The notes under the pieces were generated by a model. That model was not told the origin of the DNA and made no database searches. It saw only the letters and a program-made list of their open reading frames with translations. A DNA stretch of 64,000 nt from Bacillus xiapuensis. Its GTDB lineage: Bacteria; Bacillota; Bacilli; Bacillales; Domibacillaceae. Below are positions 6,727-51,527 of the stretch, in pieces (positions within the stretch are counted from its first letter, which is position 1; each line of letters opens with the position of its first letter). The translations under genes and the position numbers were made by a program. Location of the stretch: NCBI RefSeq assembly GCF_002797355.1, contig NZ_KZ454939.1:209233-273232 (forward strand). The letters run 5' to 3'.

Positions 6727-8422
6727 GGTTCTTACGCAATTTTGGTGAACAAGCCTGAGTATATGTATAGTTACTTTCCATTGTTATTTCGATATATCAT
6801 TAGGGCTGATACAGTACACGCTTTTCCAGTAAATCAGGATTCGCCCGTCCATACATCATGCGTTTGGAAATTTGAGTCGATTGATGTGTCCTTCTAGTAG
6901 ACCGTTGTGAAATGGCATCGTCAACGCATTCTTTACAGCACTTAAGTCTTTGCGAATCCCTTTGCTGTGGGAATGGAGCGGTGAATGCTTATTAGACAAT
7001 TGAGCGGTCATCCAATCAAGAAACGCCGAAAGGTCACGCATTTTAAAGAAGGTTCAATACTGTTGAATGATGTCCGCTGCTTGGACTAAACAAGGAAACT
7101 TTGTTTGACAATGTTTCAAAATGGCTCTCTTTCTTTCAGTCAACGCATCAGAACCTGCCCACAGATAGTTGGCCACTTGCTTTCTTGTGACACATTGTTT
7201 TATTCCTGCTGGGAACCGTTGCTTTTTATTTGCTCTGTAAGGCTCTAAAAAACGCCTCACGGCAGAAGCACTTCCTCTATATCCTTGTGAATGTAGCTTT
7301 CGAATGATTTGATTGGTCGTAAAATGCTGTTTATTATAAGCTATAATCGCTTCGTAATAAGGTTGGAGCTTGAATTGTGTGGGCTTTCTTCTACGTTGTG
7401 TTTTCGCAGGAGATGTTTGCTGATCCAAATATTTATAAATGATACCACGAGCGAGTTGATATTTTTTCGCTAAATGGGTCACACGCACCCCTTCTTGATA
7501 ATCAGCTTGTATTTGTTCGATTCATTTCCATTTTTCTTCATCAACTGGTTGGGGAGATGATTCGTTCTCCTTCTTGATTTTTGTACCTTCGTGCCATTCA
7601 ATAGTCGAAGGAATATGACGTTCCAACCACTTTTCTAAATCCTCTCGTGCATTTTTCATCAAATGCCAACGCTCGCTTACTTGTTGAATTTTTGGATTGG
7701 CTTTTTCAATGGCTTCTCGGTACGTAATCGACCCATCTCGACTGACAAATTGAATTTGCGAATGTTGTTTGAGCCACTATGTCACTGTTTCACCTGTACG
7801 ATCGGACAAAATCGCAAGAAGTTAATGTGTGATAAGGTCACAAATCAATGTGCCGTAGGCATGACCTTTTCGAAACGAAAATCGTCGATACCCACCGCAG
7901 AAGGAATAGAGACAGGAGTCGGGGTAGCTCGAATCAGTCGTAGAAATGTATCATGGCTCATCTTAGGCAGAAAAGAGATAGCGAGTTTTTCCGCTTGTAG
8001 ACAGATCATGGAAAAAGCGAGTGTTCTGAGAAGTTGTTGAAGTCGTTCTGTCCGTCTAGCATAAGGCTTCAGCCAAGGAAAACGCTCTGTAAAAATACGT
8101 TGCGTACAATCGTTTTCATCACAGAACCATTTGCGTGAAACAAAATGAATAGCTGTATGTTGGGAACCAAAAGGTAAATCATATAAAAAACGCGTATACC
8201 GACTATGCAAGTGTAGGCTTTTCGTTCCGCATGATGGACAATACGCATGGTTCGTCGTCATTTGAAGGAGGAGAATCGTCTCTTTTTCTTTCTTTAGAAG
8301 CAAGTGAGCTTGTAACTGTTTTTCAGGAGTTAGCCAAGGTATCATCATAAGAATTCACCCTTTTCTTTTTCTATACCCGAAAAACAATCAGCTAAAGACT
8401 TCACCAAAATTGCGTAAGAACC
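6727..8422 (-). mobile_element. Decayed ISL3-family insertion sequence with intact ends
   Basis: The 1696-bp element is bounded by perfect 23-bp terminal inverted repeats: 6727-6749 (starting GGTTCTTACGCAATTTTGG) and its reverse complement at 8400-8422. The interior encodes a broken ISL3-type transposase on the minus strand. The 8 bases on each side (GATGAAAT left, TTTTTATT right) do not match, so the usual 8-bp target duplication is absent, either decayed or lost by recombination. It forms the left margin of the accessory island directly downstream of groEL. Confidence 0.85.
6856..8348 (-). pseudogene. ISL3-family transposase, inactivated
   Basis: The reading frame starts at 8348 with MMIPWLTPEKQ. 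It has the zinc-binding head C-P-S-C-G-T-K and later C-D-E-N-D-C, an HTH region, then the first catalytic block (VGIDDFRFEK). A frameshift near 7857 moves the frame to GHAYGTLICDL, followed by in-frame stops near 7825 and 7780. The frame recovers as SDRTGETVT, DGSITYREAIEKANP and ERWHLMKNAREDLEKWL. The C-terminal DNA-binding part (MRVTHLAKKYQLARGIIYKYL) is open at 7054-7488, and the last segment lies at 6856-7041. It cannot make full-length protein. Confidence 0.85.
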
Positions 8423-9060: not shown

Positions 9061-11214
9061 TTAACTACTAACTAAGAGATTATCTGAACCTACTTGTTTT
9101 TCCCACATTCGTTGATAGGTACCTTTTTTTGAAAGTAAGTCACTATGCTTTCCTACTTCAATAATTTGACCTTGTTCTAATACAACGATAATGTCAGCAT
9201 CAATTGTATTAATTAAACGATGGGTGATAATTATACGAGTAGTATTAGACTCATTGAAATAAGTATCAATTTGATTTTCAGTCAATGTATCTAAATTACT
9301 AGTAGCTTCATCCAAAATAACAATAGAAGGGTTGTTTACGATAGCTCTAGCTATTGCTAACCTTTGACGCTGTCCACCTGATAACATATCTCCATTCTCT
9401 CCAATAATTGTTTCATATCCCATTGGCATTTGAAGAATATCATCGTGAAGTCTAACTTTTTTTGCAGCTTCTACGATTTCTTCGTTAGAGAACTTTCTAA
9501 AACCAGAAATATTATTAGCTATAGTATCATTAAATAAAAAACTTTCTTGTAGAACGACTCCTAACTTTCTTCTTAACTGATAAATATTTAGGCTATTTAA
9601 ATTATCATTACCAATGTATACTGTGCCAGAGGTTGGTTTATATAATCCTAGGATTATTCTAGAAAGTGTAGTTTTTCCGCTACCTGTGCGACCTACTAAT
9701 GCAACCTTACTTCCACATGGGATTTTTAAGTTAATATTTTGTAAGACTGGTTTACTTTGGTTATGAGAAAAGGTTACATTTTCTAAAATGATATCCCTTT
9801 TGTCAAGGTCATCTGGTAAAGGCTCATGGTTAAATTCTTCGGCAGGAGTTTCCATAACATCTTGAATACGTTCAAATACATCTCCTACTAATTGAAACTG
9901 TTGAATACTGTTTATTATAGAGGTTACCGGTAATAAAAATGCTGTACCTAAGCTACTAAACCCCAATAATCCTCCCAAAGATAAATTGCCTTTAGAAACT
10001 TCTCCGATGCCAAACAATAGAAGTAATAGTGGAGCGCAAAATCTAATGCTTACGCTAACGCTTTCTAATATTGCATCTAAAGTATATCTTTTCTTAAACA
10101 TATTAATTTGCTTATCATAGTACCTAGACCACTTATTCATAATTGAATGATCTAATCCATTTGATTTTATAAAACTTATGGATCTTAAAGATTCAATCAA
10201 AAAGCTTTGAGTAGTAGTCTGGGCAGACAGGTCCCCTCTAATCAACTCTTTGATTTTAGGAATAAATATGACCATAAAGATAAATTGAAAGGTGGCTAAT
10301 CCAATGGCAAATAAAGCCAACTTTACTGATTGAGAAAGCATTGCTACAAAAAACGTTACTAAAGTGATAATATCAAGTACTATAGATGTCCCGCTTCTCG
10401 CAAGCATTTCTCTTATCATAGCAATATTACTCACTCTCATTGCTATGTCTCCAACTGTTCGATTTTCAAAAAAACTCAACGGAAGTTTTAGTAAATGCTC
10501 CATAAAATCGGTAGATATATCTCTGCTAATTTGTGCCTGTAACATTATTGAAAAATGGCTTCGTATAAACATTAGAATGCTTAATATTACAAGGCCTAGG
10601 AGGGTACATATCCCTACTGTAGACAAATCAGTGTAAGAGTCTTCTATAAATATATCATCGACAAGATACTTGATTACGAAGGCTACTAACAAAGATAAGG
10701 CTTGTGCGATAAGAGAGAAAATTAGAATCATAGTAACGATAGACTTACATTTTGAGATATATCTATAGTAATATTCTAGAGTTGATGGAGGTGACATCTC
10801 CTTTAACTTATTTGTAGGTTTAAAGGTAAGAATGACATTACTAAAGTGCTGCTTAAATTCATCTATGTTCATTTTGATTCTTCCCATATTGGGATCAAGA
10901 ATAAAGAATTGTTGGCCATTAAACTTCTCTAGTACTACAAAATGATGATTATCCCAGAATAATATGCAAGGAGTGTATGGAGTTGTATTTTTTATAAACG
11001 CTTCTGCATCAACTTGAAAAACTTTACAATCCATGCCGTAATGATTAGCTACTTCTTTTAATTTTTTAATTGACACCCCATTTCTTTGAGCTCCACATTG
11101 TTCGCTTATTTTATTCAATGAGACTTTACAGTTATAAAAGCTTAATATCATAGATAAACAAGCTGGCCCACATTCATGTTGGCCCATTTGTCTTATCAAA
11201 GGCACTCTTTTCAT
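9061..11214 (-). CDS. mrsT: Lantibiotic exporter with leader peptidase, MrsT-like (LanT)
   Basis: A 717-residue half-transporter that both cuts the leader and exports class II lantibiotics. The N-terminal C39 peptidase has the catalytic Cys15 in QHECGPACLSM, a His in NHHFVVLEKF near residue 91 and Asp in ILDPNMG. A six-helix transmembrane domain spans roughly residues 155-440. The ATPase has Walker A GRTGSGKTT, signature SGGQRQRLAIARA and Walker B IVILDEATSNLD. It should cleave after the Gly-Ala at the end of the precursor leader. It is downstream of mrsM on the same strand, separated by a terminator-like hairpin. Base composition is A+T-rich like the rest of the cluster. Confidence 0.95.
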   Translation of the reverse strand: MKRVPLIRQMGQHECGPACLSMILSFYNCKVSLNKISEQCGAQRNGVSIKKLKEVANHYGMDCKVFQVDAEAFIKNTTPYTPCILFWDNHHFVVLEKFNGQQFFILDPNMGRIKMNIDEFKQHFSNVILTFKPTNKLKEMSPPSTLEYYYRYISKCKSIVTMILIFSLIAQALSLLVAFVIKYLVDDIFIEDSYTDLSTVGICTLLGLVILSILMFIRSHFSIMLQAQISRDISTDFMEHLLKLPLSFFENRTVGDIAMRVSNIAMIREMLARSGTSIVLDIITLVTFFVAMLSQSVKLALFAIGLATFQFIFMVIFIPKIKELIRGDLSAQTTTQSFLIESLRSISFIKSNGLDHSIMNKWSRYYDKQINMFKKRYTLDAILESVSVSIRFCAPLLLLLFGIGEVSKGNLSLGGLLGFSSLGTAFLLPVTSIINSIQQFQLVGDVFERIQDVMETPAEEFNHEPLPDDLDKRDIILENVTFSHNQSKPVLQNINLKIPCGSKVALVGRTGSGKTTLSRIILGLYKPTSGTVYIGNDNLNSLNIYQLRRKLGVVLQESFLFNDTIANNISGFRKFSNEEIVEAAKKVRLHDDILQMPMGYETIIGENGDMLSGGQRQRLAIARAIVNNPSIVILDEATSNLDTLTENQIDTYFNESNTTRIIITHRLINTIDADIIVVLEQGQIIEVGKHSDLLSKKGTYQRMWEKQVGSDNLLVSS

Positions 11215-11226
11215 AGTATCACTCCT

Positions 11227-11260
11227 AAAAAATGAGCCCTATACTTAGGGGCTCATTTTT
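11227..11260 (-). terminator. Intercistronic terminator or attenuator between mrsM and mrsT
   Basis: A 12-bp stem AAAAATGAGCCC/GGGCTCATTTTT with a 9-base loop sits wholly between the mrsM stop and the mrsT ribosome site. On the minus strand it is followed by a T-run that leads directly into AGGAGTG. It looks like a rho-independent terminator that would reduce mrsT relative to mrsM. Confidence 0.75.
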
Positions 11261-11266
11261 CAATTT

Positions 11267-14200
11267 TTAAATATCCAGTTCGATAGGTGACTGTAACTTT
11301 AGTACAGAAGGAATCTTATTGGGTTCATAAATTTTTAATAATCCAAGCCCTATTCCTGCTAATCCCATCATCAAAGACGGGGATTCGTTTTGTTTTTCGA
11401 AGCCACTAATCCAACCTCGATTCTTAATATCATGTAGAATCATTTGGCTTAGTTCACTTGTTTTTTCTAATAAACTTTCACAATAATCGATCCCTGACAT
11501 AAGAATATCTAGGTTACCTAAATCACCATGACAAAGTGAATGATTGTTGCCAAATCCATTTTTACAAGTTGTATCCACAGCAATTAAGGCTTCTTCTTTA
11601 ATTTCTCTTTTCATGTTTATATCTTCAATTAAAGGCATTAGAAGAAAGCGACTTAACCCAATACCTGCTGCACCATTGCACCAAGCTACAAAATCCTCAT
11701 TTCGTGATTGTCCACTCTCTAGTTTTAAATCTGCCCAGTTCTTCTTTTCAGGAATATAAAGAGTTTTTTCATAATCCAATCCTTGATCTGCAGCATTTTT
11801 ATATTTGACCTTACCAGTCACTTTATATATTTCGTATAGAGACCAAACAATCCCTGAAGCTCCATGTGAAAAACCAGATGATGGAACTGGGTTGGCTTCA
11901 ACCTTCCAACCTATCCCTCTCTCCATAGGTATTGCATTCATTATTAAGCGCTCTCCACATAAATCAATGAGATCCAATAGTTTAGGTTCTTGTAGGCGTT
12001 TATAGAGATTAAGAAGCACAATTGCACATCCAGAAACTCCAGTTAAGATATCATTGTTCTTATCTATTGGTATAAGATTTCTAAGTTTTTCTTCACACCC
12101 TAAGAAAGCATTCATAATTAAAGAGTTATCTTTCCACAAAGCAGAAAGGTGATCTAATAAATAAAGAGATGAACCTATTCCACCAAAGGCACCCAAATCT
12201 TGCAAGGTAGGTAAGTTACTTAATATTGGAACCAGTGCTTCTTGCGCAATTTTTGTGTATTTTTCCTTTTTAGAAATGTAGCCTAAATAAGCAAAAAACA
12301 ACGATATTCCACCAATACCTTCATACAAGGTACTGTTAGTTGGGGAAATTTTAAATTGATCTTCCCTTTTATTATCTACAAAAGATCCAATCCATGATAT
12401 ATCTGTTTGTTCTCCTTGTTTTCCCCTAATTCCTCTCTGATCTAAAAAGTCTGCTATGTTCATTGCTTCTTGTAAAAATTCTATTTCCTTATATGGTTGA
12501 GGAGGAGAGACTAAGGAGGTATTTTTTTTGGTTTTGTCTTTCAATACTAGCATAGCTGTCTGAATAAAGGATATTTGCTCTTCACGATCCGTAGGATTTA
12601 GCCCGTTAAATTTATTTTGTATGTCATCAAGAGCGTTATTCTTAAAGAAGTTAGGGATTTCATTTCCTCTTGAATCAATGATAGATGTTGAACCGGGATA
12701 GCTTAAAAAGTAGGGAATGTCACCTGAATACATATCATATTGTTCACTGTGAACAACAGCTTTTAAATTAGGGTTTAACTTTGTGTCTAACCAAAGTTTG
12801 TCCAAAATCATATCTCGATCTAATCCATCACGCATAAAATTAGGATGTAAACTAATTCTTAATAAGTTAGCGTATCGAGATGTTCCTCTTAATATTTGTC
12901 GAACCGGAACAACTTTAAATTCTTTTACTTTTTCGTATACTTGATCTCTATTTTCCATTAAGAAGTTATATGTTTCTTTAAATCCCTCTAAAATCGCATC
13001 TTCATAGTCTACTACTTTCACATTTTTCCCGTTCAGTAAAGGACGATGATGACTAACTGGGATAGAATAATTCTTTTCAACAATACGTATAGTGTCTTTA
13101 TTTCTATCTTCGATTACTGTAGTTTTGTGTGGAGATACTTGACCTTCTTGAGCACCTAATCCGCTTAGATCAATACCTTCTAATCCCTGTTTACTTCCTA
13201 TTTTCCTAGGTAATAACCCAATGCGTAAAACAGACTTTTCTATATGAGTATGTGCACGACTAAGGGCACTATCATCTGTATATGTTGAACTATTGTGCAA
13301 TAATGATTCAAGATCAATTAGGATTGGGTATTCTCCATTAGCAATCAAATTTTGATGATGAAAATCTACTGCATTAATTGAATAAAGGATAGACAAATAA
13401 CTTCCGATTCTCCAATAAAAACGTTTAATCTCTTCTTCACTATGACATGTAGAAGGACAAATAAACTCTGTCCATCCATATTCCTTTCTGTCAAGCGTTT
13501 TAACTGTTTTTAAGCGATAGCGCAATTCGCTATTTATACTTTTGATGAACCTGTTAAAAACTTGATCTACCTTTAGAGATCTAGGCTTGTAAACTATCTT
13601 TAAATTATATTGAAAGTGTAAGATAGTAACCGTCTTTCCTTTGTTATGAGAATCGGATATAGTGCTACCTGTTTCAATCTTAATGACTGGTCCAAGCGGT
13701 TTTCCTAAGTTAAACTCCTCTTCTAACAAGGAATTATCACTAAGGATTCTCTGATAAAGGTCACCCACGTTATTAATCCAATAAATTGTTTTCGTAGCCA
13801 ATAACCGTGCCAACACTACATATTCTGTAAGAAGGGTGGAAGTGTATTCTTTATTGTTTAGATGATTGTTATTATAATATTGGAATCGTTCTTCGGGTGT
13901 TTCACCCTTTAAGTGCCCAGACACACGTGCAACATTTAATTCCAAGATAATTGTTCGACTGCATAGTGCAGCAAGAGATTCTGCTAAATTGCGAATTAAT
14001 GAATCATGAGCTTCCTTCTTAATTAAGCATTTGATTTTTTCAGTAATATTCAATTCATTTAATTTTACATCTAGTCTTCCAATTCCTACTTTGACAAAAG
14101 GTTTTACGAAATTAACAAACAAAACATCTTCTAGATCAGGAATTACAACTTCTTCGAACTTGGGCGAATAAATATCATTTAACACGCTCTTCCAATCAAT

Positions 14201-14446
14201 TAAATCACTGTCATCTAAAACTTCAATTTCAGGTGCTGCTAGAAAATTTAACAACAACTCCTCATTCAAATAATGTGTATCAAGTACTTCTTTAAGAGAA
14301 ATCTCTTTGTCGCTTTCAACAAACTCTTTCCATCTATTAAAGCGTTTTTGGGATAATTCGTCTGTAGTCCTTGTCTTTGGTATAGCCCTTTCTTTTAAGG
14401 AAGTTGCACCGTTCCAGTCAATACCAGCTAATGTAGTGGTTTTCAT
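11267..14446 (-). CDS. mrsM: Class II lantibiotic synthetase, MrsM-like (LanM)
   Basis: A 1059-residue bifunctional enzyme that dehydrates Ser and Thr in the precursor and then closes the (methyl)lanthionine rings. The N-terminal half is the dehydratase (DUF4135, about residues 130-650), with kinase-like segments such as VIKIETGSTISD, LKIVYKPRSLKVDQVF and DFHHQNLIANGEYPILIDLESL. The C-terminal half is the LanC-like cyclase with zinc ligands in WCNGAAG near residue 923 and SLCHGDLG near residue 970. The length matches the family. The GGAGG ribosome site is well placed. It is divergent from mrsD across about 216 bases that must hold both promoters. Confidence 0.97.
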   Translation of the reverse strand: MKTTTLAGIDWNGATSLKERAIPKTRTTDELSQKRFNRWKEFVESDKEISLKEVLDTHYLNEELLLNFLAAPEIEVLDDSDLIDWKSVLNDIYSPKFEEVVIPDLEDVLFVNFVKPFVKVGIGRLDVKLNELNITEKIKCLIKKEAHDSLIRNLAESLAALCSRTIILELNVARVSGHLKGETPEERFQYYNNNHLNNKEYTSTLLTEYVVLARLLATKTIYWINNVGDLYQRILSDNSLLEEEFNLGKPLGPVIKIETGSTISDSHNKGKTVTILHFQYNLKIVYKPRSLKVDQVFNRFIKSINSELRYRLKTVKTLDRKEYGWTEFICPSTCHSEEEIKRFYWRIGSYLSILYSINAVDFHHQNLIANGEYPILIDLESLLHNSSTYTDDSALSRAHTHIEKSVLRIGLLPRKIGSKQGLEGIDLSGLGAQEGQVSPHKTTVIEDRNKDTIRIVEKNYSIPVSHHRPLLNGKNVKVVDYEDAILEGFKETYNFLMENRDQVYEKVKEFKVVPVRQILRGTSRYANLLRISLHPNFMRDGLDRDMILDKLWLDTKLNPNLKAVVHSEQYDMYSGDIPYFLSYPGSTSIIDSRGNEIPNFFKNNALDDIQNKFNGLNPTDREEQISFIQTAMLVLKDKTKKNTSLVSPPQPYKEIEFLQEAMNIADFLDQRGIRGKQGEQTDISWIGSFVDNKREDQFKISPTNSTLYEGIGGISLFFAYLGYISKKEKYTKIAQEALVPILSNLPTLQDLGAFGGIGSSLYLLDHLSALWKDNSLIMNAFLGCEEKLRNLIPIDKNNDILTGVSGCAIVLLNLYKRLQEPKLLDLIDLCGERLIMNAIPMERGIGWKVEANPVPSSGFSHGASGIVWSLYEIYKVTGKVKYKNAADQGLDYEKTLYIPEKKNWADLKLESGQSRNEDFVAWCNGAAGIGLSRFLLMPLIEDINMKREIKEEALIAVDTTCKNGFGNNHSLCHGDLGNLDILMSGIDYCESLLEKTSELSQMILHDIKNRGWISGFEKQNESPSLMMGLAGIGLGLLKIYEPNKIPSVLKLQSPIELDI

Positions 14447-14662
14447 TATTTATTCCTCCACCTTTCCAGTGAAATCCGTTTATGGTTTATTTACCTATAA
14501 AGAATAGCAATTTTAATAAGGTATTCATACAAATTTTAGGGAATTTAAAATTAACTTTATACCTAATTATTAAGAAAAATTTATATTATCCATTTTTTTC
14601 ACTATCATCCATATATTGATGTATTATTATTTCATAATATAAATGGGAGGTTGTTTACATTA

Positions 14663-15250
14663 ATGGATGAGCTTAAAGATAAGAAATTATTAATTGGTGT
14701 AACAGGAGCTATTTCTTCTGTAGGTATATCACAGTATCTCTTATATTTTAAAAACTATTTTAAAGAAATTAGAGTGATCATGTCGGATAGTGCGGTTGAT
14801 CTAATTCCTGCAAATACTGTCTCCTATTTTTGTGATTATGTGTATACAGAGAAAGAATTTATGGAAGATAAAAAATACAATCACATGGAGATTGGAAAAT
14901 GGGCCGATATTTATTGTGTGTTACCAGCGACTGCTAACACAATAGCGAATGTTGCAAATGGCATGGCTTTAAATTTATTAACTACTACTGTTTTGGCGCA
15001 TCCTTATCCTACTTTGTTTTTTCCTTCCATGAATGAAGTAATGTGGGAAAAGAAAGCTTTATTAAGGAATTTAAAACAATTAGAATTAGATGGACACTAT
15101 ATTATAGCTTCTCAGACTACTTTGGCTTATGAAGTCTCTTCTGGTGAGAGAAAGTCTAATAGAGTTATTCCTGCACCGGATAGAGCATTAACTGAAGTTT
15201 ATGAAATATTTAAAAAAAGGAATTGTGGAATGTTTTCTAAAGAGAGCTAA
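14663..15250 (+). CDS. mrsD: Cysteine decarboxylase flavoprotein, MrsD/EpiD-like (LanD)
   Basis: A 195-residue flavin enzyme that oxidatively decarboxylates the C-terminal Cys of the precursor, giving the enethiol needed for the aminovinyl-methylcysteine ring. The family marks are present: GVTGAISSVG near the N-terminus for flavin binding, the catalytic His in NHMEIGKWAD, the substrate-clamp motif LPATANTIANVANG, and PSMNEVMW. I start at ATG 14663, 12 bases after GGGAGG; the TTG at 14651 touches the ribosome site. It is the only gene of the central block on the plus strand, as in the published mersacidin cluster. The precursor ends in Cys, as this enzyme requires. Confidence 0.94.
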   Translation: MDELKDKKLLIGVTGAISSVGISQYLLYFKNYFKEIRVIMSDSAVDLIPANTVSYFCDYVYTEKEFMEDKKYNHMEIGKWADIYCVLPATANTIANVANGMALNLLTTTVLAHPYPTLFFPSMNEVMWEKKALLRNLKQLELDGHYIIASQTTLAYEVSSGERKSNRVIPAPDRALTEVYEIFKKRNCGMFSKES

Positions 15251-15270
15251 TGATTTCATTAGCTCTCTTT
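15239..15270. terminator. Bidirectional terminator shared by mrsD and mrsR1
   Basis: A perfect 14-bp stem AAAGAGAGCTAATG/CATTAGCTCTCTTT with a 4-base loop. The stop codon of mrsD (15248-15250) lies in the left arm and that of mrsR1 (15269-15271) at the foot of the right arm. It closes both convergent genes with almost no spacer. Confidence 0.75.
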
Positions 15271-15943
15271 AGATTGCTTGTCCCTTCTTCTTTCTCTCTT
15301 CGTTGATAATTTGTTCTTTTGGATCGATTAACTTTATTTCTGCTTTATGTTTGTATATTTGATAACCTTTACCGAATTTTGTCAATATAATTTGTGGGTT
15401 GCCGCAATTTTCCTCTACTTTCTCTCTAAGAGAATTAATATGTACATATAAACTAGATCTACTTGTCAAATCTGCATAATTAATGAGTTCTTCAGAGCTT
15501 ACAACTTTACCAAGGTTTAGGTAAAGTAAATATAATATTTTGAATTCTTGAGTTGCTAAAGGGACATATTCTTCTTTTCGCCAGATACAGTGCTTTCCAA
15601 CATCAAAAAAAGTATAAGGAGCCAGTTCTTCAACAATTTTACGAGGACCTTGAAAATTATTAAACAGTTCTAAAAATGGGGTGAAATATTTATTAGGAGA
15701 TGCATCAGCAGCTAAAGAGTTCATAATAATTAAAGGACAGCCAATTTTTTGGACAATTTTCACACTTAAGTCAGTTTGTAAACATGTATCAAATACAACA
15801 AAGGAAAGCATGTTGTCTCTCGTATAAGCATTTAACTTTTCAATACTATTAACACAATCTGTTTCTATTCCGTAAGGTGTAAATAGGTGCTTTATATAGG
15901 CAGAAAAATAGCTGTTTTCAGAACATATAAGTGCTTTTTTCAT
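15269..15943 (-). CDS. mrsR1: Orphan OmpR-family response regulator, MrsR1-like
   Basis: A 224-residue regulator with an N-terminal receiver-like domain (1-110) and a C-terminal winged helix (about 115-205: ATQEFKILYLLYLNLGKVVSSEELI, then SLYVHINSLREKVEE and KFGKGYQIY). The receiver is degenerate. The N-terminal acidic pair is missing (ALICSENSY where LVVDDD is usual), although an Asp near residue 52 (VVFDTCL) remains. No partner kinase is adjacent. In the mersacidin system MrsR1 is the orphan regulator needed for production, and this gene sits in the same place, just downstream of the precursor gene. It may act without phosphorylation. Confidence 0.88.
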   Translation of the reverse strand: MKKALICSENSYFSAYIKHLFTPYGIETDCVNSIEKLNAYTRDNMLSFVVFDTCLQTDLSVKIVQKIGCPLIIMNSLAADASPNKYFTPFLELFNNFQGPRKIVEELAPYTFFDVGKHCIWRKEEYVPLATQEFKILYLLYLNLGKVVSSEELINYADLTSRSSLYVHINSLREKVEENCGNPQIILTKFGKGYQIYKHKAEIKLIDPKEQIINEERKKKGQAI

Positions 15944-16022
15944 ATTTATCCCTCCTGATTAAATGCATGATTTTGTAAAAATTGTTATATAAATTGATTA
16001 ATGGGGTATAATATAAGAAAAT

Positions 16023-16062
16023 AAAAAAGGTTGTTTGTCTCTGTAAGAGAAAACAACCTTTT
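16023..16062 (-). terminator. Strong terminator after the lantibiotic precursor gene
   Basis: A 12-bp stem AAAAGGTTGTTT/AAACAACCTTTT with an inner TCTC/GAGA extension, ending in a T-run on the minus strand (16023-16028). It lies 11 bases after the mrsA-like stop and separates it from mrsR1. Confidence 0.85.
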
Positions 16063-16073
16063 GGCAAAAAAAT

Positions 16074-16271
16074 TTAGCAGATACACTCAGAAGTTACTGT
16101 ACAAACACCTCCACCGCCAGGAAGTGTCCAAGTACAAGCTGCTTCCATATCTCCAGCACCTACTACTTTATCCATCTGAGCCTCTTCCAATTCACTGAAA
16201 GGGTTTCCAGCTGGATTTTTCTCTGCAGAAGCGAATGGATCTTTCCAAGATTGGATCATTTCTTTATTCAT
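16074..16271 (-). CDS. mrsA: Mersacidin-variant lantibiotic precursor (LanA)
   Basis: A 65-residue precursor peptide. The leader keeps the mersacidin pattern (SWKDPF, NPAGNPFSELEEAQMDK) and ends VVGAGDMEAA, with the exporter cut after Gly-Ala and the last six residues trimmed later in mersacidin. The 20-residue core CTWTLPGGGGVCTVTSECIC differs from mersacidin only by Phe3 to Trp and Leu14 to Val, as I recall that sequence. All ring residues (Cys1-Thr2, Thr4-Cys12, Thr13-Cys18, Thr15-Cys20), Ser16 and Glu17 are kept. I start at the ATG at 16271, 8 bases after AGGAGG; a GTG at 16280 overlaps that site. It is likely a lipid II binder acting on cell-wall synthesis. Confidence 0.97.
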   Translation of the reverse strand: MNKEMIQSWKDPFASAEKNPAGNPFSELEEAQMDKVVGAGDMEAACTWTLPGGGGVCTVTSECIC

Positions 16272-16292
16272 TTTTTTCACCTCCTTTTATTT

Positions 16293-16430: not shown

Positions 16431-17165
16431 CTAATTAATATCTCGTTTAGAAAAGCTTCGTAATCCAAACAAAAGAAAAAGCGAAAAAGTAGCAATTAAT
16501 AGGCAATAGAAAAGAAAGTACGATTCAATAGGTGACTCATCTGCTGGTGACATAGCTAACATAGGTTGTGTCCAAGGATAAAATTGTCCTAAAGGCGTAC
16601 TGGCTACAATGATAGCTGGAAGTGTAAAAATAATACTAAAAGCTAAGGGTATTCCAAATGTTTTCGCCCTAAGTGAAACGATCAACTGAATAAGAAGTAA
16701 TGGTAAACAAGCTAGAAATCCTTGAACAATAAATATTATAATTTGAATGAGAGGGAGGTCTCCTTCTAGTCCATTAAAGAATCCAAACGATAGAAAAAAT
16801 AATAAGACTATTAAGAGAGTAATAGCTACCATAATAGAGGCCATAAAAAATTTTCCCATGAAGATTTTAGATCTTCCAATAGGCAATGTTAAAAGTTGTT
16901 TCCATCCCCCACCTATATGCTCTCCTCTGCAAACAAAAGCAGCATATATGCCTACAGCTATAGGTAAAACAAATGGCCCCATAAATATTGCAACTTGCGT
17001 CCAAACTTCAACCCATTCGCTATCCCCTGGTTGCATAAACAAATCGTAGTTATTTCTGAAATTGATAAATGCTAGTAGCACACCTACTAATGGTCCTAAT
17101 ATATATAGAATCCATATTTTTGAGCGTTTTAATTTTAATCTTTCAACACTAATAATTTCTTTCAT
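16431..17165 (-). CDS. mrsE: Lantibiotic immunity ABC transporter permease, MrsE-like
   Basis: A permease of about 244 residues with six hydrophobic segments, forming with MrsG and the ATPase MrsF a LanFEG self-protection exporter that removes the lantibiotic from the membrane. It starts MKEIISVERLKLKRSKIW, the cytoplasmic lead-in typical of this family, and contains GGGWKQLLTLPIGRSKIFMGK. The second in-frame ATG (17165) fits the AGGAGGG ribosome site better than the first (17171). It follows mrsG with a 14-base gap. The E versus G label follows the published F-G-E order. Confidence 0.88.
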   Translation of the reverse strand: MKEIISVERLKLKRSKIWILYILGPLVGVLLAFINFRNNYDLFMQPGDSEWVEVWTQVAIFMGPFVLPIAVGIYAAFVCRGEHIGGGWKQLLTLPIGRSKIFMGKFFMASIMVAITLLIVLLFFLSFGFFNGLEGDLPLIQIIIFIVQGFLACLPLLLIQLIVSLRAKTFGIPLAFSIIFTLPAIIVASTPLGQFYPWTQPMLAMSPADESPIESYFLFYCLLIATFSLFLLFGLRSFSKRDIN

Positions 17166-17179
17166 TGTCATCCCTCCTA

Positions 17180-17938
17180 CTAAATATCTCTTCGAGTGAA
17201 ATGAATTAATCCAATTACGAGCAAAATTATTCCTACAAGCGTATTAATAATGATATAAGCAGACAGGTCACCATTATAGCTGAGTCCTTCATATTGAAGA
17301 GAAATTGTAGAAGATTGCACTGGATATGCTAGGGGCATCCATCGAGTAGTAGATCCGGCGGCTAAGAATAGCCCCATCATTGATGATACAGCCCCAATGA
17401 TAATAGAAAAGGCTTGGTTTTTAAATGTAATTGAAAGCCATAACTGAAAGGACACTATAGGTAAAGTTGTAAACAATATACTGTAACTGTCTCCCAAAAT
17501 AAGCCATAGAGGTATATCTCCTTCAAATCCAAGAACTTTACCAAGTAACAGTGTACCTATGAAAAAGAAACTGACTGAGAAAGTTAGTCCTAATAAAATC
17601 CACAGAAATTTACTTAAATAAATTACGGCTCTTGATACAGGTTGTGAGAGTACTGCTTTCCAAGAATTTGATTGATGTTCAATATTTACAATCATGGATG
17701 CAGAAATAGTAGCAACTAATGGGAAACCTAATCCAAACAAAAGGCTGTTATCAAAAAGCAAATATTCCCACAATGAATTTGCTTTAAATAGCTCTGCCTG
17801 TTTAACTACATATTCCGAACGGTACGTTAAATTAATGAGTTCATAAGCTAAAACTAATAAAGGCACAAGAAGTAGAACGATAGGCAAGGAAGTGCGCTTT
17901 AACTTCAATCCATCCGCCAATAATACACGTTTCATCAT
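17180..17938 (-). CDS. mrsG: Lantibiotic immunity ABC transporter permease, MrsG-like
   Basis: A 252-residue six-span permease beginning MMKRVLLADGLKLKRTSLP and sharing with MrsE the motif SNSWKAVLSQPVSRAVIYLSKF. It is the second membrane partner of the LanFEG immunity transporter. The start overlaps the mrsF stop by 4 bases (ATGA), so the two are translationally coupled. An AAAGGAG site lies about 9 bases upstream. The E/G naming relies on gene order. Confidence 0.88.
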   Translation of the reverse strand: MMKRVLLADGLKLKRTSLPIVLLLVPLLVLAYELINLTYRSEYVVKQAELFKANSLWEYLLFDNSLLFGLGFPLVATISASMIVNIEHQSNSWKAVLSQPVSRAVIYLSKFLWILLGLTFSVSFFFIGTLLLGKVLGFEGDIPLWLILGDSYSILFTTLPIVSFQLWLSITFKNQAFSIIIGAVSSMMGLFLAAGSTTRWMPLAYPVQSSTISLQYEGLSYNGDLSAYIIINTLVGIILLVIGLIHFTRRDI

Positions 17939-18849
17939 AGGCTTGCTCCTTTACCTGTAATGTCTAAAAAGATATCCTCTAATGTTTTTTTCACTTCTTC
18001 CAATCGATAGACTGATACGCCTGAGTGAACAAGAATAGAATTAATCTCCGATACAAATTCTGGTTCAGTTTGGGATATCCATAGGGCTTCATTATGAAGT
18101 TTTGGGGTTAGACCTTTGCTTTTGAGTATGGAGTTTGCTTCATGTGCATTGTTTACAGCAATTCTTAGCAAAGGTTTTCTTTTTTGTCTTAGCTTTTCTA
18201 TGGAATCTTGAAATATTAGTTTACCTTCGTTAATAATTCCGACTTGAGTAGCCATCTGGTCAATTTCGCTTAATAAGTGACTAGAGATTAACACACTCAT
18301 TCCCTGCTTTTTGGGTAGCTCTTTGATTAATTCTCTAATTTCTTGAATGCCCGCAGGGTCTAAGCCATTTGTTGGTTCATCTAATATCAATAAATCTGGA
18401 TTACTTAATAGAGCAGTAGCGATACCTAATCGCTGTTTCATTCCCAAAGAATATTCTTTCGCTAAACGATTTGATACTTTATTTAGACGTACTACTTCAA
18501 GTACTTCATGAACACGTTTCTCTGGTAGCCCTCTTAAGCGGCGTACTGTTTCTAAATTTTCAAACCCTGTCAGGTTCCCATAGTAGGATGGTGATTCAAC
18601 GAGTGAGCCAACCCGCTGGAGGATTCCGATTCGATTTTGCTTGAGGTCTTGTCCAAATATCTGGATAAAGCCCTTTGTTGGTTTAATTAATCCTAAAAGC
18701 ATTCGAATAGTGGTAGTTTTTCCAGCTCCGTTGGGTCCTAAAAATCCATAAATTTCTCCTCTTTGCATGTTTAAATTAATACCATCCACAGATGTGTTTT
18801 TTTTATACTTTTTTGTCAGATTATTTGTTGATATCACTAAATCTTTCAT
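17935..18849 (-). CDS. mrsF: Lantibiotic immunity ABC transporter ATPase, MrsF-like
   Basis: A 304-residue ATPase of the LanF/BcrA type that powers the MrsEG permeases in producer self-protection. It has Walker A GPNGAGKTTT, signature SLGMKQRLGIATALL, Walker B LLILDEPTNGLDP and the C-terminal extension typical of these immunity ATPases (KKTLEDIFLDITGKG). I start at ATG 18849, 6 bases after GAGGTG; the GTG at 18858 is part of the ribosome site. It leads the FGE operon. The IS21 remnant begins about 105 bases upstream of the start codon. Confidence 0.92.
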   Translation of the reverse strand: MKDLVISTNNLTKKYKKNTSVDGINLNMQRGEIYGFLGPNGAGKTTTIRMLLGLIKPTKGFIQIFGQDLKQNRIGILQRVGSLVESPSYYGNLTGFENLETVRRLRGLPEKRVHEVLEVVRLNKVSNRLAKEYSLGMKQRLGIATALLSNPDLLILDEPTNGLDPAGIQEIRELIKELPKKQGMSVLISSHLLSEIDQMATQVGIINEGKLIFQDSIEKLRQKRKPLLRIAVNNAHEANSILKSKGLTPKLHNEALWISQTEPEFVSEINSILVHSGVSVYRLEEVKKTLEDIFLDITGKGASL

Positions 18850-18867
18850 TCTGATCACCTCAACTTT

Positions 18868-18922
18868 ATCTTAGACAAAATTCGCTAAACACAGGGGAAA
18901 CATTTCCTTAACATTTCCTTAA
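18868..18922 (-). promoter_or_regulatory. Probable mrsF promoter with tandem 11-bp regulator repeats
   Basis: Two exact head-to-tail copies of CATTTCCTTAA lie at 18901-18911 and 18912-18922, one helical turn apart. On the minus strand they are followed by a poor -35 (CCCTGT at 18896-18891) and, after 17 bases, a -10 TAAGAT (18873-18868). A weak -35 beside an 11-bp direct repeat is the layout of a promoter activated by an OmpR-type regulator. The R2K2 pair of this cluster is the natural candidate. Confidence 0.6.
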
Positions 18923-18953
18923 CAGCTATAAGAGTTAAGAAAATTTTCATAAC

Positions 18954-19761
<808 letters not shown>

Positions 19762-19788
19762 ATAACATCAAATATTAATGGTTTTTCC

Positions 19789-21042
19789 CACGCCTGTTGA
19801 TTAACCAAATTTAGACAGACTTCTCCTGCTCTGATCAAAATAGTGATACAGAAATAAGACCATTCGATCCCACCACTGTAAGGGTAATGCGCCTGTCAAA
19901 AGCATGCGCTGAAAAGCCACTGACGACAGGTTCGGTTTGGAAATGGAGGATTTTGTCTGTTTATATAACCAATGAAGCAGAACATAGGCAATGAAGGCGG
20001 CGAAAAGCTGATTAAACACCGCATTTTCGGTCGTACCAAATAAAACAGGCACATTTAAATTTTGCTTGATCCAGCGAAAAAAGGTTTCAATGCCCCAGCG
20101 CGCTTTGTACATGTTGGCGATTTCCTCTGCCGACACATGACGTAAGCTGGTCACGACACGAACTTCTCGTCCTTCGTCATCTTTAAAAAACACCACTCGA
20201 TGACGTTTTTCCGAACGAGATTGAACGGAACCAAGTAAACAAGTGATATCGTGCGTCACGTTTGAGTCCTTTTGTGGCAGGCGTTGTAAGGATTTTTTAT
20301 GAGATAACTCTACGTTCTCTTTCATCCGAATCACGAAATCTTGTCCTTCTTCGAGAAAGCGATCAATCCGTTGAATGTTAAAATAGGCACGGTCTTCTAC
20401 TAAAATGAAGCGAGAATCGGCAAGTTGTTCACCTGTTGGTCCATCGTGTGTCAGACCAGTGGATTCAACGACTTTCAAAGGCATTTGTGTCTCCAATGAA
20501 AAACTCACATGAAGCTTGATGCCTGAGCGTTGGCCATGATAAACGGCCCAAGGAAGTCGAGTTTTCCCTACGGTGATCGTGGTGGAATCCACAAGAAGCA
20601 GATGTTTAGGTATCTTCAACGTGCGACGAGTGGCCCGGTTACATTTGCGAACAATTAAATCAAATACGTTCTTCATTAATTCGTAATCAAGCTGACTCAT
20701 CTTTTTTGAAAGAGTGGAATAGTTCACATCGACAAGGCCGGCCGATGAGCTAACGTCCGCACAGTAGCGTAAGCTTTTCCACTCACAAGCAGCCGCCGTC
20801 ACGAGATACTGGATCAATGTTTTCACGTCTAGTTTTCGTGCGGTATCTTCATAACCAACCAGTTCAATCAATGGTTTTAGCTCTTCATCGGAAATAAACT
20901 TTTGAATCAAATTCGGGAACATGGTATTCTGTTTCATAGGGGACACCTCTTCTCGTTTATGTTTGGTGGTACTTACATTTTACAAGAAGGTGTCCCTTTT
21001 TGTCGTCTTTTTATGGAAGATTATGCATAATCAACACGCCTG
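19789..21042 (-). mobile_element. Complete IS4-family insertion sequence
   Basis: A 1254-bp element with 15-bp inverted ends (CACGCCTGTTGATTA at 19789; CAGGCGTGTTGATTA reading inward from 21042; two mismatches). A perfect 9-bp target duplication, GGTTTTTCC, lies at 19780-19788 and 21043-21051. It encodes one intact transposase and appears potentially active. It landed in the stretch between the IS21 remnant and mrsR2, about 70 bases upstream of the mrsR2 start. Confidence 0.92.
19801..20937 (-). CDS. IS4-family transposase
   Basis: A 378-residue DDE transposase with an N-terminal DUF4372-like domain (FPNLIQKFISDEELKPLI). The catalytic Asp residues lie in LLVDSTTITV and ILVEDRAYFN. The IS4 signature Y-2-R-3-E-6-K is exact in YKARWGIETFFRWIK. 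The frame is uninterrupted. I start at ATG 20937 after AGAGGTG; a GTG at 20946 is possible. A degraded relative lies at 28945-29405. Confidence 0.95.
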   Translation of the reverse strand: MKQNTMFPNLIQKFISDEELKPLIELVGYEDTARKLDVKTLIQYLVTAAACEWKSLRYCADVSSSAGLVDVNYSTLSKKMSQLDYELMKNVFDLIVRKCNRATRRTLKIPKHLLLVDSTTITVGKTRLPWAVYHGQRSGIKLHVSFSLETQMPLKVVESTGLTHDGPTGEQLADSRFILVEDRAYFNIQRIDRFLEEGQDFVIRMKENVELSHKKSLQRLPQKDSNVTHDITCLLGSVQSRSEKRHRVVFFKDDEGREVRVVTSLRHVSAEEIANMYKARWGIETFFRWIKQNLNVPVLFGTTENAVFNQLFAAFIAYVLLHWLYKQTKSSISKPNLSSVAFQRMLLTGALPLQWWDRMVLFLYHYFDQSRRSLSKFG

Positions 21043-21116
21043 GGTTTTTCCATCAAAAACCACTTATTTAATGTAGAATAAAGAGGAATAGAATTTGGAA
21101 ATGAGGAGGAAATAAT

Positions 21117-21845
21117 ATGAATGAAGTTACAAGAAAACCTTCTATTTTAATAATTGATGATGATTCACCGATATTAGAATTAATCAAAATTACATTAGAA
21201 AAGGAAGGATTTAGACATATTCTAATGGCCTCTTCTGGCAAAGAAGCTATGCAATTAATACAGCAGTATAATCCTCATATCATTGTGTTAGATGTAATGT
21301 TGCCGGATACAGACGGATTTTCGCTTTGTAACCATATTCGTACTTACACTAATGCTCCAGTCTTATTTCTAACTGCGAAGAATTCTGATCTTGATAAGCT
21401 GCAGGGGTTTAGCTTTGGCGGTGATGATTATATAACTAAACCGTTTAATCCATTAGAAGTAGCTGCAAGAATAAAAGCTCATTTAAAGCGTGCTGGACTT
21501 GTCACATCTGTGGAAGACAAGCCTGCTACCTTCGATTTTGGACACTTTCAAGTTGAGGAAAAGTCAGGAAAACTTATCGTTAATCAAAAACAAGTTGAAT
21601 GTCCAGCACAAGAATTTAAATTATTGCTTTATTTTTGTAATCATCCTAATCAATTAATTAGCAAGCAAAAAATATACCGGGAAGTTTGGGGGGAGTTCTA
21701 TGGTGGAGATAGTACAGTAATGGTTCATATTAGACGTTTAAGAGAAAAGATAGAAGAAGATCCTAGTAACCCCGCTTATCTTAAAACTGTTCGGGGATTA
21801 GGTTATATTTTGGATGTTCCAAATGGAAGAAGAAATTTGTTATGA
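21117..21845 (+). CDS. mrsR2: OmpR-family response regulator, MrsR2-like
   Basis: A 242-residue regulator: a receiver domain with the acidic pair (IIDDDSP), phosphoacceptor Asp in IVLDVMLPDTDGF, Thr in LFLTAKN and Lys in YITKPFNPLE, then a winged helix (from about residue 140) with DSTVMVHIRRLREKIEEDPSNP. All phosphorylation residues are present, unlike MrsR1. It overlaps mrsK2 by 4 bases. In mersacidin producers the R2K2 pair controls the immunity genes FGE. Here the two have been pushed apart by about 2.1 kb of insertion sequences. Confidence 0.93.
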   Translation: MNEVTRKPSILIIDDDSPILELIKITLEKEGFRHILMASSGKEAMQLIQQYNPHIIVLDVMLPDTDGFSLCNHIRTYTNAPVLFLTAKNSDLDKLQGFSFGGDDYITKPFNPLEVAARIKAHLKRAGLVTSVEDKPATFDFGHFQVEEKSGKLIVNQKQVECPAQEFKLLLYFCNHPNQLISKQKIYREVWGEFYGGDSTVMVHIRRLREKIEEDPSNPAYLKTVRGLGYILDVPNGRRNLL

Positions 21846-23248
21846 AGCTAAGAAATCGAATTGCTTTTCATTTTGTTTCCAGATTGTTTTTATTGCTACT
21901 ATGCTGGATTACACTACTATTTCTCTGTATTATAACGTTGAGTATATTTTTCAATCAAAAGCAGGAAAGTACTGCGGTTTCTATTGAAGAAATTGTAAAT
22001 GCAACGAGCAAACAAGGTGAAAAAATAAAAGTAGAAAAGTCCGTTCTTCAATCTATAGCTAATCATGAATTATGGCTTCAAATATTGGATGAAAATGGGC
22101 GAGAACTTTTCTCTACAAATAAACCATCATCTATTCCCAAAAAATATACACCAGGCCTATTGGTGTCTAATTATATGTATCCAGCAAAAAGTGGTTATCA
22201 TTTATCAACATGGTATGACACCATAGACAGCCAACAATTAACATGGGTAATTGGAGAAAAAATAAAGAACAAGAATCCTTTTTTTTTCTGGGCTAACAAC
22301 TTATGGATTTTATTTATGATAATTGCTGGGTGTTTAATAGCTATATATTTTGGAAAACTCTTTGGAGCACCTTTGCTCCACGTTGTTTCTTGGATCGAAA
22401 ATCTCTCTATCGGAATATATAAAGAACCAGTAAACAAAAGGGGAGTTGTCAATAGCCGTTCTAAAAATGGAAGATTAAAGTCAGGCTTTAAAACTTATAA
22501 AGAATTAATGAATGCACTAGAAGATTTGATGAAGGTTCTAAAGAAGAATAAAGAAGACCGAGAAAAACTAGAGAAGACGCGTGAAGAGTGGATGACAGGC
22601 GTCTCTCATGATTTAAAAACTCCTCTGTCTGTGTTAAAAGGATATACATTTCTAATGGCTTCAGAAGTTCATCATTGGGAAATAGATCAAATTCGTTCTT
22701 TTTCTTTAAAGATGCAAAAGAGAATTGATTATATGGAGCATTTGATTGAAGATTTTAATCTTAGCTTTCGTTTAAAAAATGATTCACTTCCTTTCAAAAA
22801 GCATTTAATTAACCTGGTGGAACTCTTAAGAGAGACCACTATCTCACTCACTCAACTCCCGGAAGGGCAAAACATGAAATTTGAGTTTTTTTCAGATGAA
22901 GAATATATAGCAATAGAAGGAGACGAAAATTACCTTAAACGTGCATTTGAAAACATAATTACAAATTGTATTAAGCATAATCCGCCTATGACAAATGTTA
23001 AAATCGCGGTTTTAACTAGTAATAATTTTGTTGAAATACTGATTGAAGATGACGGGATAGGAATGAGCAGAGAGGTATTAGATCGTTTGTTTGACCGTTA
23101 CTACAGAGGTACAAATTCTTCCAACTCAACCGGCACTGGGTTAGGTATGGCTATTTCTAAACAAATCATCCTAGCTCATGATGGAGATATAGAGATAGAG
23201 AGTGAAATTCAAAAAGGAACAAAATTTGTTATTAGATTTTCTAATTAA
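21842..23248 (+). CDS. mrsK2: Sensor histidine kinase, MrsK2-like
   Basis: A 468-residue kinase with two membrane helices (about residues 11-36 and 150-172) framing a roughly 110-residue extracellular domain. A coiled linker follows, then the H box EWMTGVSHDLKTPLSVLKGY and ATPase boxes N (NIITNCIKHNP), G1 (EDDGIGM) and G2 (GTGLGMA). It likely senses the lantibiotic or membrane stress and phosphorylates MrsR2. The start overlaps the mrsR2 stop. It is the last gene of the cluster on this side; the next frame starts only 5 bases later and is foreign to it. Confidence 0.92.
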   Translation: MKLRNRIAFHFVSRLFLLLLCWITLLFLCIITLSIFFNQKQESTAVSIEEIVNATSKQGEKIKVEKSVLQSIANHELWLQILDENGRELFSTNKPSSIPKKYTPGLLVSNYMYPAKSGYHLSTWYDTIDSQQLTWVIGEKIKNKNPFFFWANNLWILFMIIAGCLIAIYFGKLFGAPLLHVVSWIENLSIGIYKEPVNKRGVVNSRSKNGRLKSGFKTYKELMNALEDLMKVLKKNKEDREKLEKTREEWMTGVSHDLKTPLSVLKGYTFLMASEVHHWEIDQIRSFSLKMQKRIDYMEHLIEDFNLSFRLKNDSLPFKKHLINLVELLRETTISLTQLPEGQNMKFEFFSDEEYIAIEGDENYLKRAFENIITNCIKHNPPMTNVKIAVLTSNNFVEILIEDDGIGMSREVLDRLFDRYYRGTNSSNSTGTGLGMAISKQIILAHDGDIEIESEIQKGTKFVIRFSN

Positions 23249-23253
23249 TAAGT

Positions 23254-23598
23254 ATGATGAACTCTTATTCAGAATTTATGTATGACACGATCGACAAGAA
23301 AAACGAAGTGCTGATTACGCTGCCAAGTTTATTTAAAGATGACAGCTATATCCGCCTCATTAGCCAGAACATCAAGAAACAGATGAAGCAGCAAATGGAA
23401 GCTGATCCGCAAAAAATATATTGGGACGATGCCCAGGCCGTTGATAAAAATCAACCCTTTTACATTAGTGATAAAGGCAAGCCGGTGCTTGTGTTTACTA
23501 AATACGAGGTCGCTCCCGGAGTCATGGGAGTTTGTGAATTTACGGTACCGACCGATGTGATTGAGGATGCATTGGTAAGCAAGCAATATATCAAGTAG
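23254..23598 (+). pseudogene. Truncated DUF3298/RsiV-type C-terminal domain
   Basis: The 114-residue frame resembles the C-terminal half of DUF3298 proteins such as the anti-sigma factor RsiV (SLFKDDSYIRLISQNIKKQMKQQ, then FYISDKGKPVLVFTKYEVAPGVMGVCEFTVP). It has no membrane anchor, no N-terminal DUF4163 part and no ribosome site. Base composition becomes visibly more G+C-rich exactly here. I read it as the surviving end of a chromosomal gene cut by arrival of the lantibiotic island. Confidence 0.7.
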
Positions 23599-24117: not shown

Positions 24118-24151
24118 TCATCTTGGTTTAAATTCATTTGTTCAACAAAAG

Positions 24152-25103
24152 TGATACTACGTCAAGAAAATAGACACAGATTTTTCTACCGCGCTTCCGC
24201 TTGAAATTGTAGAAGAACTCGATGTATTCAAACAGAGATTTCCTCGCTTCTTCCCGTGTTATATACTTTGTTTGATAAACTAGCTCACGCTTAAGAATAC
24301 CGTGAAAGGATTCAATGCAAGCATTGTCGTAACCGTTTCCTTTTCCTGGATTTTGATGATTAAAAGCCATCTTTAATGCTGAGATAACCAATTCCCTTGT
24401 CATAGTCTTATCCATTGACCAGCCTACTATTTTACGAGAATATAAGTCCATTACGGTCGCCAAATACAACCAGCCCTCATTGGTCGGAATATAAGTGATA
24501 TCCGTTACCCAATATTGGTTTGGTTTGCTTGCATTAAACTGTCGATTTAAGACGTTTTCATTTACCGGGAGACTTTATGTTCACTTACTTTTACACCACG
24601 TTTTTTCAGGGTTTTAGCAATTAAAACACTACCGTACCGTTGCTTAAATTCTAAATGGGTCTGAAGAATGTCTTGTGATCATTTCTAATGCTGTTTCTGC
24701 CGGTCACTCTTCGGTATGTTCACCCATTTGAAGTAACTGCTTTTAGAAACTCCCAAGACTTTGCACAACTCCTCCACTCGGAATCGGGAGTGACTTTCAT
24801 GAATGAATTCCTATTTTACCGAGGGTTTTTCGCGAAGCAGTGCATCGCCTTTTTTAAGATTTCATTCTCCTCTTTAAGATCACGAATTTCCTTCTAAAGA
24901 GCTCTTCATTCAGCTGCTTCTGAGGAAAATGATTGTACCGCTATAATTTCTGGTTTTCCGCCATGCTTCTTTACCCAAGCATGTAAAGTATTCTCATTTA
25001 CGCCCACTTCTCTAGCTACTTGAGCTAGAGGCTTATTGTTTTCACGGATATACTTTACGGTTTCGATTTTAAATGCCTCTTCGAATCGTCTGCCTTTTGC
25101 CAT
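24152..25103 (-). pseudogene. IS3-family transposase OrfA/OrfB, inactivated
   Basis: OrfA (24906-25103) keeps its HTH (FEEAFKIETVKYIRENNKPLAQVAREVG) but stops after 65 residues. OrfB is broken at several points between 24470 and 24900. Its last piece begins MYLATVMDLYSRKIVGWSMD, holding one catalytic Asp. It then jumps from NPGKG straight to NGYDNACIESFHGILKRE, deleting about 25 residues that include the second catalytic Asp (the HSDRGSQY block). It cannot be active. Confidence 0.85.
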
Positions 25104-51521: not shown

Positions 51522-51527
51522 GCGGAT

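Follow-up and report, generated by a model that had tools for sequence, protein, structure and literature searches.

The mrsA gene found in the window (the whole stretch of Bacillus xiapuensis DNA analysed here, 64,000 nucleotides) encodes, as judged from its translation, a natural variant of mersacidin that carries Trp3 and Val14 and thereby contains the F3W change known from engineering. We consider it very likely that this peptide is a functional natural mersacidin produced from a complete cluster, itself probably acquired horizontally; its biochemical steps and its activity we infer. This reading is based on the core and the precursor, ten full-length genes, conserved motifs, protein identities of 50-77% and a host subtilisin gene, together with the report that engineered F3W and L14V were each made and active (available part of PMC2706954). 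Against it stand two IS elements in the mrsF-mrsR2 spacer, the lack of a promoter in our scan for mrsA or mrsR2, and a candidate host protease that, with 649 aa, is longer than AprE.

The mrsA precursor and its core

The mrsA gene (16074-16271, minus strand) translates to MNKEMIQSWKDPFASAEKNPAGNPFSELEEAQMDKVVGAGDMEAACTWTLPGGGGVCTVTSECIC*, a 65-aa precursor made of a leader (residues 1-45, ending VGA|GDMEAA) and a core (residues 46-65), CTWTLPGGGGVCTVTSECIC. The ATG at 16271 is preceded by a ribosome-binding site, AGGAGGTG (16278-16285, minus strand); AGGAGGTG is also found before mrsA in the Oceanobacillus and B. swezeyi loci, and AGGGGGTG in the B. velezensis locus. The B. velezensis mersacidin core, CTFTLPGGGGVCTLTSECIC, was read from its contig and used as reference. 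The window core differs from it at Phe3->Trp and Leu14->Val, the two substitutions that the first-pass annotation had proposed and that are borne out here. It retains Cys1/12/18/20, Thr2/4/13/15, Ser16 and Glu17, residues that characterise members of the mersacidin group, so that the translation and the neighbouring genes agree with the earlier claim of conserved ring residues, Ser16 and Glu17 within a full mersacidin cluster. The GA|GDMEAA leader tail, another such feature, is common to all four precursors compared and corresponds to the LanT site, GA followed by GDMEAA, known for mersacidin (available part of PMC9127955).

Regarding whole-precursor similarity, tblastn matched the three relatives over residues 1-65 or 5-65 with E = 2e-33 to 2e-31, values computed relative to the candidate stretches and similar to those given by the fetched loci. 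The precursor scored above the cut-off with two NCBIfam models, NF000539 (49.5 bits, cut-off 29) and TIGR03898 (25.8 bits, cut-off 23.5), and below it with the Pfam model named Mersacidin, PF16934 (19.0 bits, cut-off 27.6). It should be noted that the PF16934 cut-off was missed by all four precursors compared, including B. velezensis MrsA itself (21.3 bits); this model therefore does not decide mersacidin membership.

Natural relatives and variation at positions 3 and 14

To find relatives, a collection of genomes from 84,980 species was scanned with short peptide patterns taken from the window's own precursor, so the scan is limited to close relatives and may be biased towards window-like cores. 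Four loci were returned, three of which are mersacidin clusters: Oceanobacillus sp. J11TS1 (L002; Trp3, Leu14), B. velezensis NRRL B-41580 (L003; Phe3, Leu14) and Bacillus swezeyi NRRL B-41294 (L004; Trp3, Val14), the last with all 20 core residues identical to those of the window. The fourth, from a Clostridiaceae genome (L005; 37%, E 6e-6), was dropped, as its printed frame contained a PGGGGVCT stretch without the rest of the mersacidin core. The Trp3/Val14 core is not confined to the Bacillus xiapuensis genome, and the uniqueness implied by the first-pass annotation does not hold, given the identical core in B. swezeyi and Trp3 also in Oceanobacillus. Its statement that this exact natural peptide was undescribed fares better, since no printed description was found in the open-licence literature. 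The window core was absent by sequence from that literature, where the mersacidin core does occur; word searches gave no description of the natural peptide among the titles and abstract starts of the matches listed, mersacidin was not found there together with swezeyi, and the accessible parts of PMC5100339 and PMC11251773 do not mention a Trp3/Val14 natural peptide.

The precursor was further searched in overlapping samples of 398 class-level, 397 order-level, 5 genus and 24 family genomes. With the own genome counted each time, matches were obtained in 10, 5, 1 and 1 of these genomes, respectively, and none of the other genomes sampled at any level gave a match above 55% identity. Four plasmid records matched, all below 60% identity; the phage search gave no match, and of 198 stretches in viral contigs that fit the precursor pattern none was confirmed.

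Among the four clusters, the 20-residue core varies at positions 3 and 14 only, in systems that share about 50-80% identity in their other proteins. Between the window and its three relatives, the proteins outside MrsA are 50-77% identical and MrsA 80-87%. Trp3 occurs in three of the four clusters and the textbook Phe3 only in B. velezensis. The window and B. swezeyi cores differ at 9 of 60 nucleotides, all synonymously, and the same core protein maintained despite these differences points to purifying selection on the peptide. An exchange between Phe and Trp at position 3 requires two nucleotide changes (TTT/TGG).

A concatenated tree, unrooted and with four tips only, paired the window with B. 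swezeyi with a support of 100, and on this tree one change per position suffices. Site counts from MrsM, MrsT, MrsD and MrsR1 taken singly did not clearly favour the pairing, so the histories of the genes may be mixed. Rooting of Trp3 against Phe3 was attempted, and the more distant precursors were not alignable at position 3. At position 14, five distant precursors with the CTxTxEC motif carry Leu in four cases (L008, L009, L013, L018) and Ala in one (L010), which makes Leu the more likely ancestral residue.

Activity of engineered variants

A saturation library of mersacidin was built by Appleyard et al. 2009, and the values below come from the available part of that paper (PMC2706954). The MICs of F3W were about 2-4-fold below those of mersacidin for seven of the eight strains of its Table 1 (for M. 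luteus, 0.5 compared to 1-2), which substantiates, for the engineered peptide, the earlier suggestion that Trp3 could alter potency. Against S. pneumoniae the MIC was equal or slightly higher (2-4 compared to 2). L14V was equal to mersacidin or slightly better on three staphylococci, equal on E. faecalis, and weaker on S. pneumoniae, M. luteus and both E. faecium strains. The F3W-L14I variant was made and had an activity like that of F3W; an F3W-L14V double mutant does not appear in the accessible part of the same paper. Since L14V alone is weaker on S. pneumoniae, M. luteus and E. faecium, combining Trp3 with Val14 does not necessarily raise potency above that of mersacidin. By analogy with the engineered peptides, Trp3 should make the peptide at least as active as mersacidin, and Val14 should cost a little on some targets.

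These data also bear on whether Trp3 and Val14 arose by neutral drift and leave activity and target range unchanged, an explanation that we find rather unlikely. It would agree with the tolerance of the engineered library, in which Ile, Leu, aromatic residues, Met, Gln and His could all occupy position 3, and with the finding that L14I, L14M and L14V remained active, position 14 being termed less permissive (PMC2706954, available part). However, a core that varies only at positions 3 and 14 among clusters with such diverged proteins, the two nucleotide changes between Phe and Trp, and the altered MICs of engineered F3W all argue against drift. As a tentative proposal, to which we give somewhat less than even weight, mersacidins in nature would usually carry Trp3, maintained by selection for potency, with the B. 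velezensis/amyloliquefaciens peptide of the textbooks as the exception; the laboratory F3W would then have re-created the natural state, and Val14 would have arisen once in the branch leading to the window and B. swezeyi. It is modestly surprising that, among the clusters found, the improved laboratory mutant matches the more frequent natural form. The four clusters, with diverged enzymes and an almost frozen core, constitute a small natural experiment in which the two variable positions have been scored by an independent mutational scan. Such ready-made clusters should have enzymes that already handle a Trp3/Val14 mersacidin, a variant not far from the best single mutant published.

Gene content of the cluster

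The mersacidin cluster comprises ten genes between 9061 and 23248, all with full-length frames. On the strand of mrsA the order is mrsF, mrsG, mrsE, mrsA, mrsR1, mrsM and mrsT; mrsD is reversed between mrsR1 and mrsM, and mrsR2-mrsK2 diverge from mrsF. Pfam and NCBIfam matches agree with the role of each gene: the LanM enzyme, the MrsD-type decarboxylase and the C39-ABC exporter are all present, as are, by homology to the other three clusters, the MrsFGE immunity proteins and the regulators MrsR1 and MrsR2/K2.

The lanthionine synthetase MrsM (11267-14446, minus strand; 1059 aa; TIGR03897, 947 bits) matches LicM2 over residues 83-1054 and CylM over residues 138-766. The motifs YKPR, DFHxxN, RxxxRxT, WCxG and CHG of the dehydratase and cyclase are found in all four MrsM proteins, and ECGPAC, HFVV and DP of the C39 protease in all four MrsT proteins; we take both sets to mark the catalytic residues. 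MrsT (9061-11214, minus strand; 717 aa) is a C39 protease-ABC exporter with PF03412, PF00664 and PF00005, and is 54-64% identical to MrsT of the three relatives, a comparison in which B. swezeyi MrsT is partial because it ends at the end of the locus. The flavoprotein Cys decarboxylase gene mrsD (14651-15250, plus strand) is listed with a TTG start, the ATG at 14663 being more likely. Its best PDB match is MrsD itself (1p3y, E 7e-72), and the motifs HxEIG and PxMNxxMW are both present in the window protein; the motif check did not find the HxEIG pattern in MrsD of Oceanobacillus.

Immunity would be provided by two ABC permeases containing PF12730, MrsE (16431-17171; 63-66% identical to MrsE of the relatives; TIGR03733 and TIGR03732 below cut-off) and MrsG (17180-17938; 64-65%; TIGR03733 below cut-off), and by the ABC ATPase MrsF (17935-18858; PF00005; 73-77%), all on the minus strand. 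MrsF scored 264.5 bits with TIGR03740, below the cut-off of 309.75; its gene is listed with a GTG start, and the ATG at 18849 is more likely. The regulators are the orphan OmpR-type MrsR1 (15269-15943, minus strand; 224 aa; PF00486; 51-55% identical to MrsR1 of the relatives), the response regulator MrsR2 (21117-21845, plus strand; PF00072, PF00486; 60-65%) and the sensor kinase MrsK2 (21842-23248, plus strand; PF00512, PF02518; 50-55%). Adjoining the end of mrsK2, a 114-aa DUF3298 open reading frame (23254-23598) is possibly a fragment of a shortened gene.

A whole-genome search for LanC-like genes gave a single match, MrsM. A second lantibiotic had been considered at G000:C2:344060 (L001), where PF16934 matches a 66-aa open reading frame; it was rejected, as the frame has a leader-like stretch and no Cys and MrsM is the sole LanC-like match. 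The surrounding gene group (G000:C2:340824-344113; L001, L025) contains an ABC transporter pair, the 66-aa frame with its leader-like stretch LTVDEMKLIQGAS and a subtilisin-like open reading frame that lacks a clear signal peptide, and is possibly a non-lanthionine peptide system.

The mrsF-mrsR2 spacer and expression of the cluster

MrsR2/K2 is reported to induce mrsFGE, and mrsR1 to be read from the mrsA promoter (available part of PMC3141056). Directly after mrsA in the window, a stem-loop (16025-16062) with a T-rich tail (together 16018-16062, minus strand) gave an RNA fold of -17.6 kcal/mol (z -5.5); the consensus terminator scan did not list it. This candidate partial terminator could let some transcripts through to mrsR1. 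Upstream of mrsF lies a tandem repeat with an 11-bp period, GTTAAGGAAATGTTAAGGAAATGTT (18899-18923, minus strand), which we propose as a candidate MrsR2 box. One such site per cluster, at up to 6 mismatches, was found upstream of mrsF in all four clusters, the counterparts in the three relatives deviating from the pattern at 4 or 5 positions; as the pattern was derived from these same four sites, counting them does not test it independently.

The spacer between mrsF and mrsR2 contains an IS21-type remnant (outer inverted-repeat ends 18958-19733; 22-nt arms, 82% complementary; IstB fragment, PF01695) and an IS4-type element (19787-21044; 17-nt arms, 88% complementary; DDE transposase, PF01609). 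The plasmid relatives of the latter carry IS4-family names, with a best protein identity of 60.8% for the transposase, and the search of the IS region against plasmids gave no near match. Both elements spare the cluster genes and the candidate MrsR2 box.

The cluster might be intact in sequence yet silent, the IS insertion having removed the mrsR2K2 promoter so that induction and immunity are lost. We judge this improbable. The two elements do occupy the spacer, and the promoter scan gave no plus-strand match in 20930-21130, which includes the 72 bp before mrsR2. Two plus-strand terminator-like sites (20938-20950 and 20982-21003; 0.0 expected from shuffles) at the IS end facing mrsR2 would stop IS transcription towards this gene; mrsR2K2, if transcribed, must then have its promoter in the remaining 72 bp. 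By contrast, the spacer that remains, 72 bp before mrsR2 and 108 bp before mrsF (180 bp in all), falls between the uninterrupted spacers of Oceanobacillus (roughly 150 bp) and B. velezensis (roughly 240 bp), and the tandem-repeat box before mrsF has been retained. The frames are also full-length, whereas decay would be expected in a long-silent cluster. Moreover, the simple promoter scan found no match for mrsA on its own strand either, so its silence at mrsR2 says little. As for mrsA being a chance open reading frame or a pseudogene, only its short length speaks for it, and the idea is refuted by the whole-precursor homology, with the ribosome-binding site and the full cluster also against it.

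Predicted maturation and expected masses

For the functional mersacidin that we favour, homology predicts that MrsM would dehydrate Thr2, Thr4, Thr13, Thr15 and Ser16 and close four rings, and that MrsD would oxidatively decarboxylate Cys20 to form the aminovinyl ring. MrsT would export the peptide and cut after GA, leaving the GDMEAA-peptide, from which a secreted host subtilisin would remove GDMEAA. The mature peptide may then bind lipid II, as the conserved ring C residues suggest, and block cell-wall synthesis, while MrsFGE would confer immunity, MrsR2/K2 would sense the peptide and MrsR1 would drive its production.

In mersacidin, MrsM installs four rings (PMC8581636) and there are five dehydrations (PMC9127955; both sources in part), so [M+H]+ 1850.78 is expected. 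For mersacidin, the precursor gene has been co-expressed with mrsM and mrsD in E. coli (PMC8581636 and PMC9127955). Calculated with five dehydrations and oxidative decarboxylation, the monoisotopic [M+H]+ of the mature Trp3/Val14 peptide is 1850.784 ([M+2H]2+ 925.896), and 2424.990 with GDMEAA retained. The earlier mass recipe, with three ring dehydrations and one Dha, was wrong in the light of the same two sources; four dehydrations would give 1868.795.

AprE was the one protease of B. subtilis 168 able to trim the peptide once fully modified (available part of PMC8581636). The host genome contains three S8 peptidase matches, including a subtilisin of 649 aa (L023) with a signal-like start, a C-terminal extension and a catalytic part closest to subtilisin DY and BPN', a candidate for the final leader-trimming protease.

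Genomic setting

The cluster lies soon after groEL, and transposase fragments flank it on both sides (7845-8348 and 24134-24469). The 8-26 kb stretch that holds it has a G+C content of 30-38%, compared to 39-48% for the remaining 2-kb steps along the window. No mrsA was found in four congeners; in the three whose groEL region was examined, the only DNA matches to window 1-30000 at E 1e-10 within the 14 kb or more that follow groEL were IS21 pieces (G140) and a repeated end of groEL (G036). The low G+C, the flanking transposase fragments and the absence in congeners fit horizontal gain, and the cluster was probably gained in this way at a variable spot after groEL.

In the latter congener (L034, G036:C13), the final ~120 bases of groEL occur again in reverse orientation at about 8294-8414, about 6 kb from the gene, which suggests that integration or recombination takes place at the end of groEL. 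Elsewhere in the window, a gene set at 50482-54375 presumably corresponds to a ComQXPA-like quorum-sensing system, with a polyprenyl synthetase (50482-51366), a ComX-like 51-aa open reading frame that ends SYFWM and thus has a Trp near its end (51366-51521), a sensor kinase (51528-53723) and a LuxR-type regulator (53710-54375).

Comparison with known mersacidin systems

The mersacidin system of B. velezensis/amyloliquefaciens (L003; PDB 1mqx; PMC2706954 and PMC3141056) has the same gene content and the same order, F-G-E-A-R1-(D reversed)-M-T with R2-K2 divergent. Its leader tail GA|GDMEAA is the same, and 18 of the 20 core residues are shared, including the ring residues, Ser16 and Glu17, whereas the window has Trp3 and Val14 and a leader shorter by 3 residues. 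The non-MrsA proteins of the two clusters are 52-77% identical, and the window alone has IS elements in the mrsF-mrsR2 spacer. The locations also differ: the window cluster follows groEL, whereas that of the mersacidin producer lies between ycdJ and fbaB (available part of PMC3141056).

B. swezeyi NRRL B-41294 has an identical core and non-MrsA proteins that are 54-73% identical. Its cluster is rearranged: at 10001-13967 of the locus, mrsA precedes mrsFGE and does not follow mrsE. By contrast, Oceanobacillus sp. J11TS1 shares both Trp3 and the gene order with the window, differs by Leu14, and has non-MrsA proteins that are 50-75% identical. The engineered mersacidins F3W, L14V and F3W-L14I, as given in the available part of PMC2706954, carry the same substitutions as the window core or, for L14I, a change at the same position; they are laboratory products of the mersacidin producer, whereas the window encodes Trp3 and Val14 naturally.
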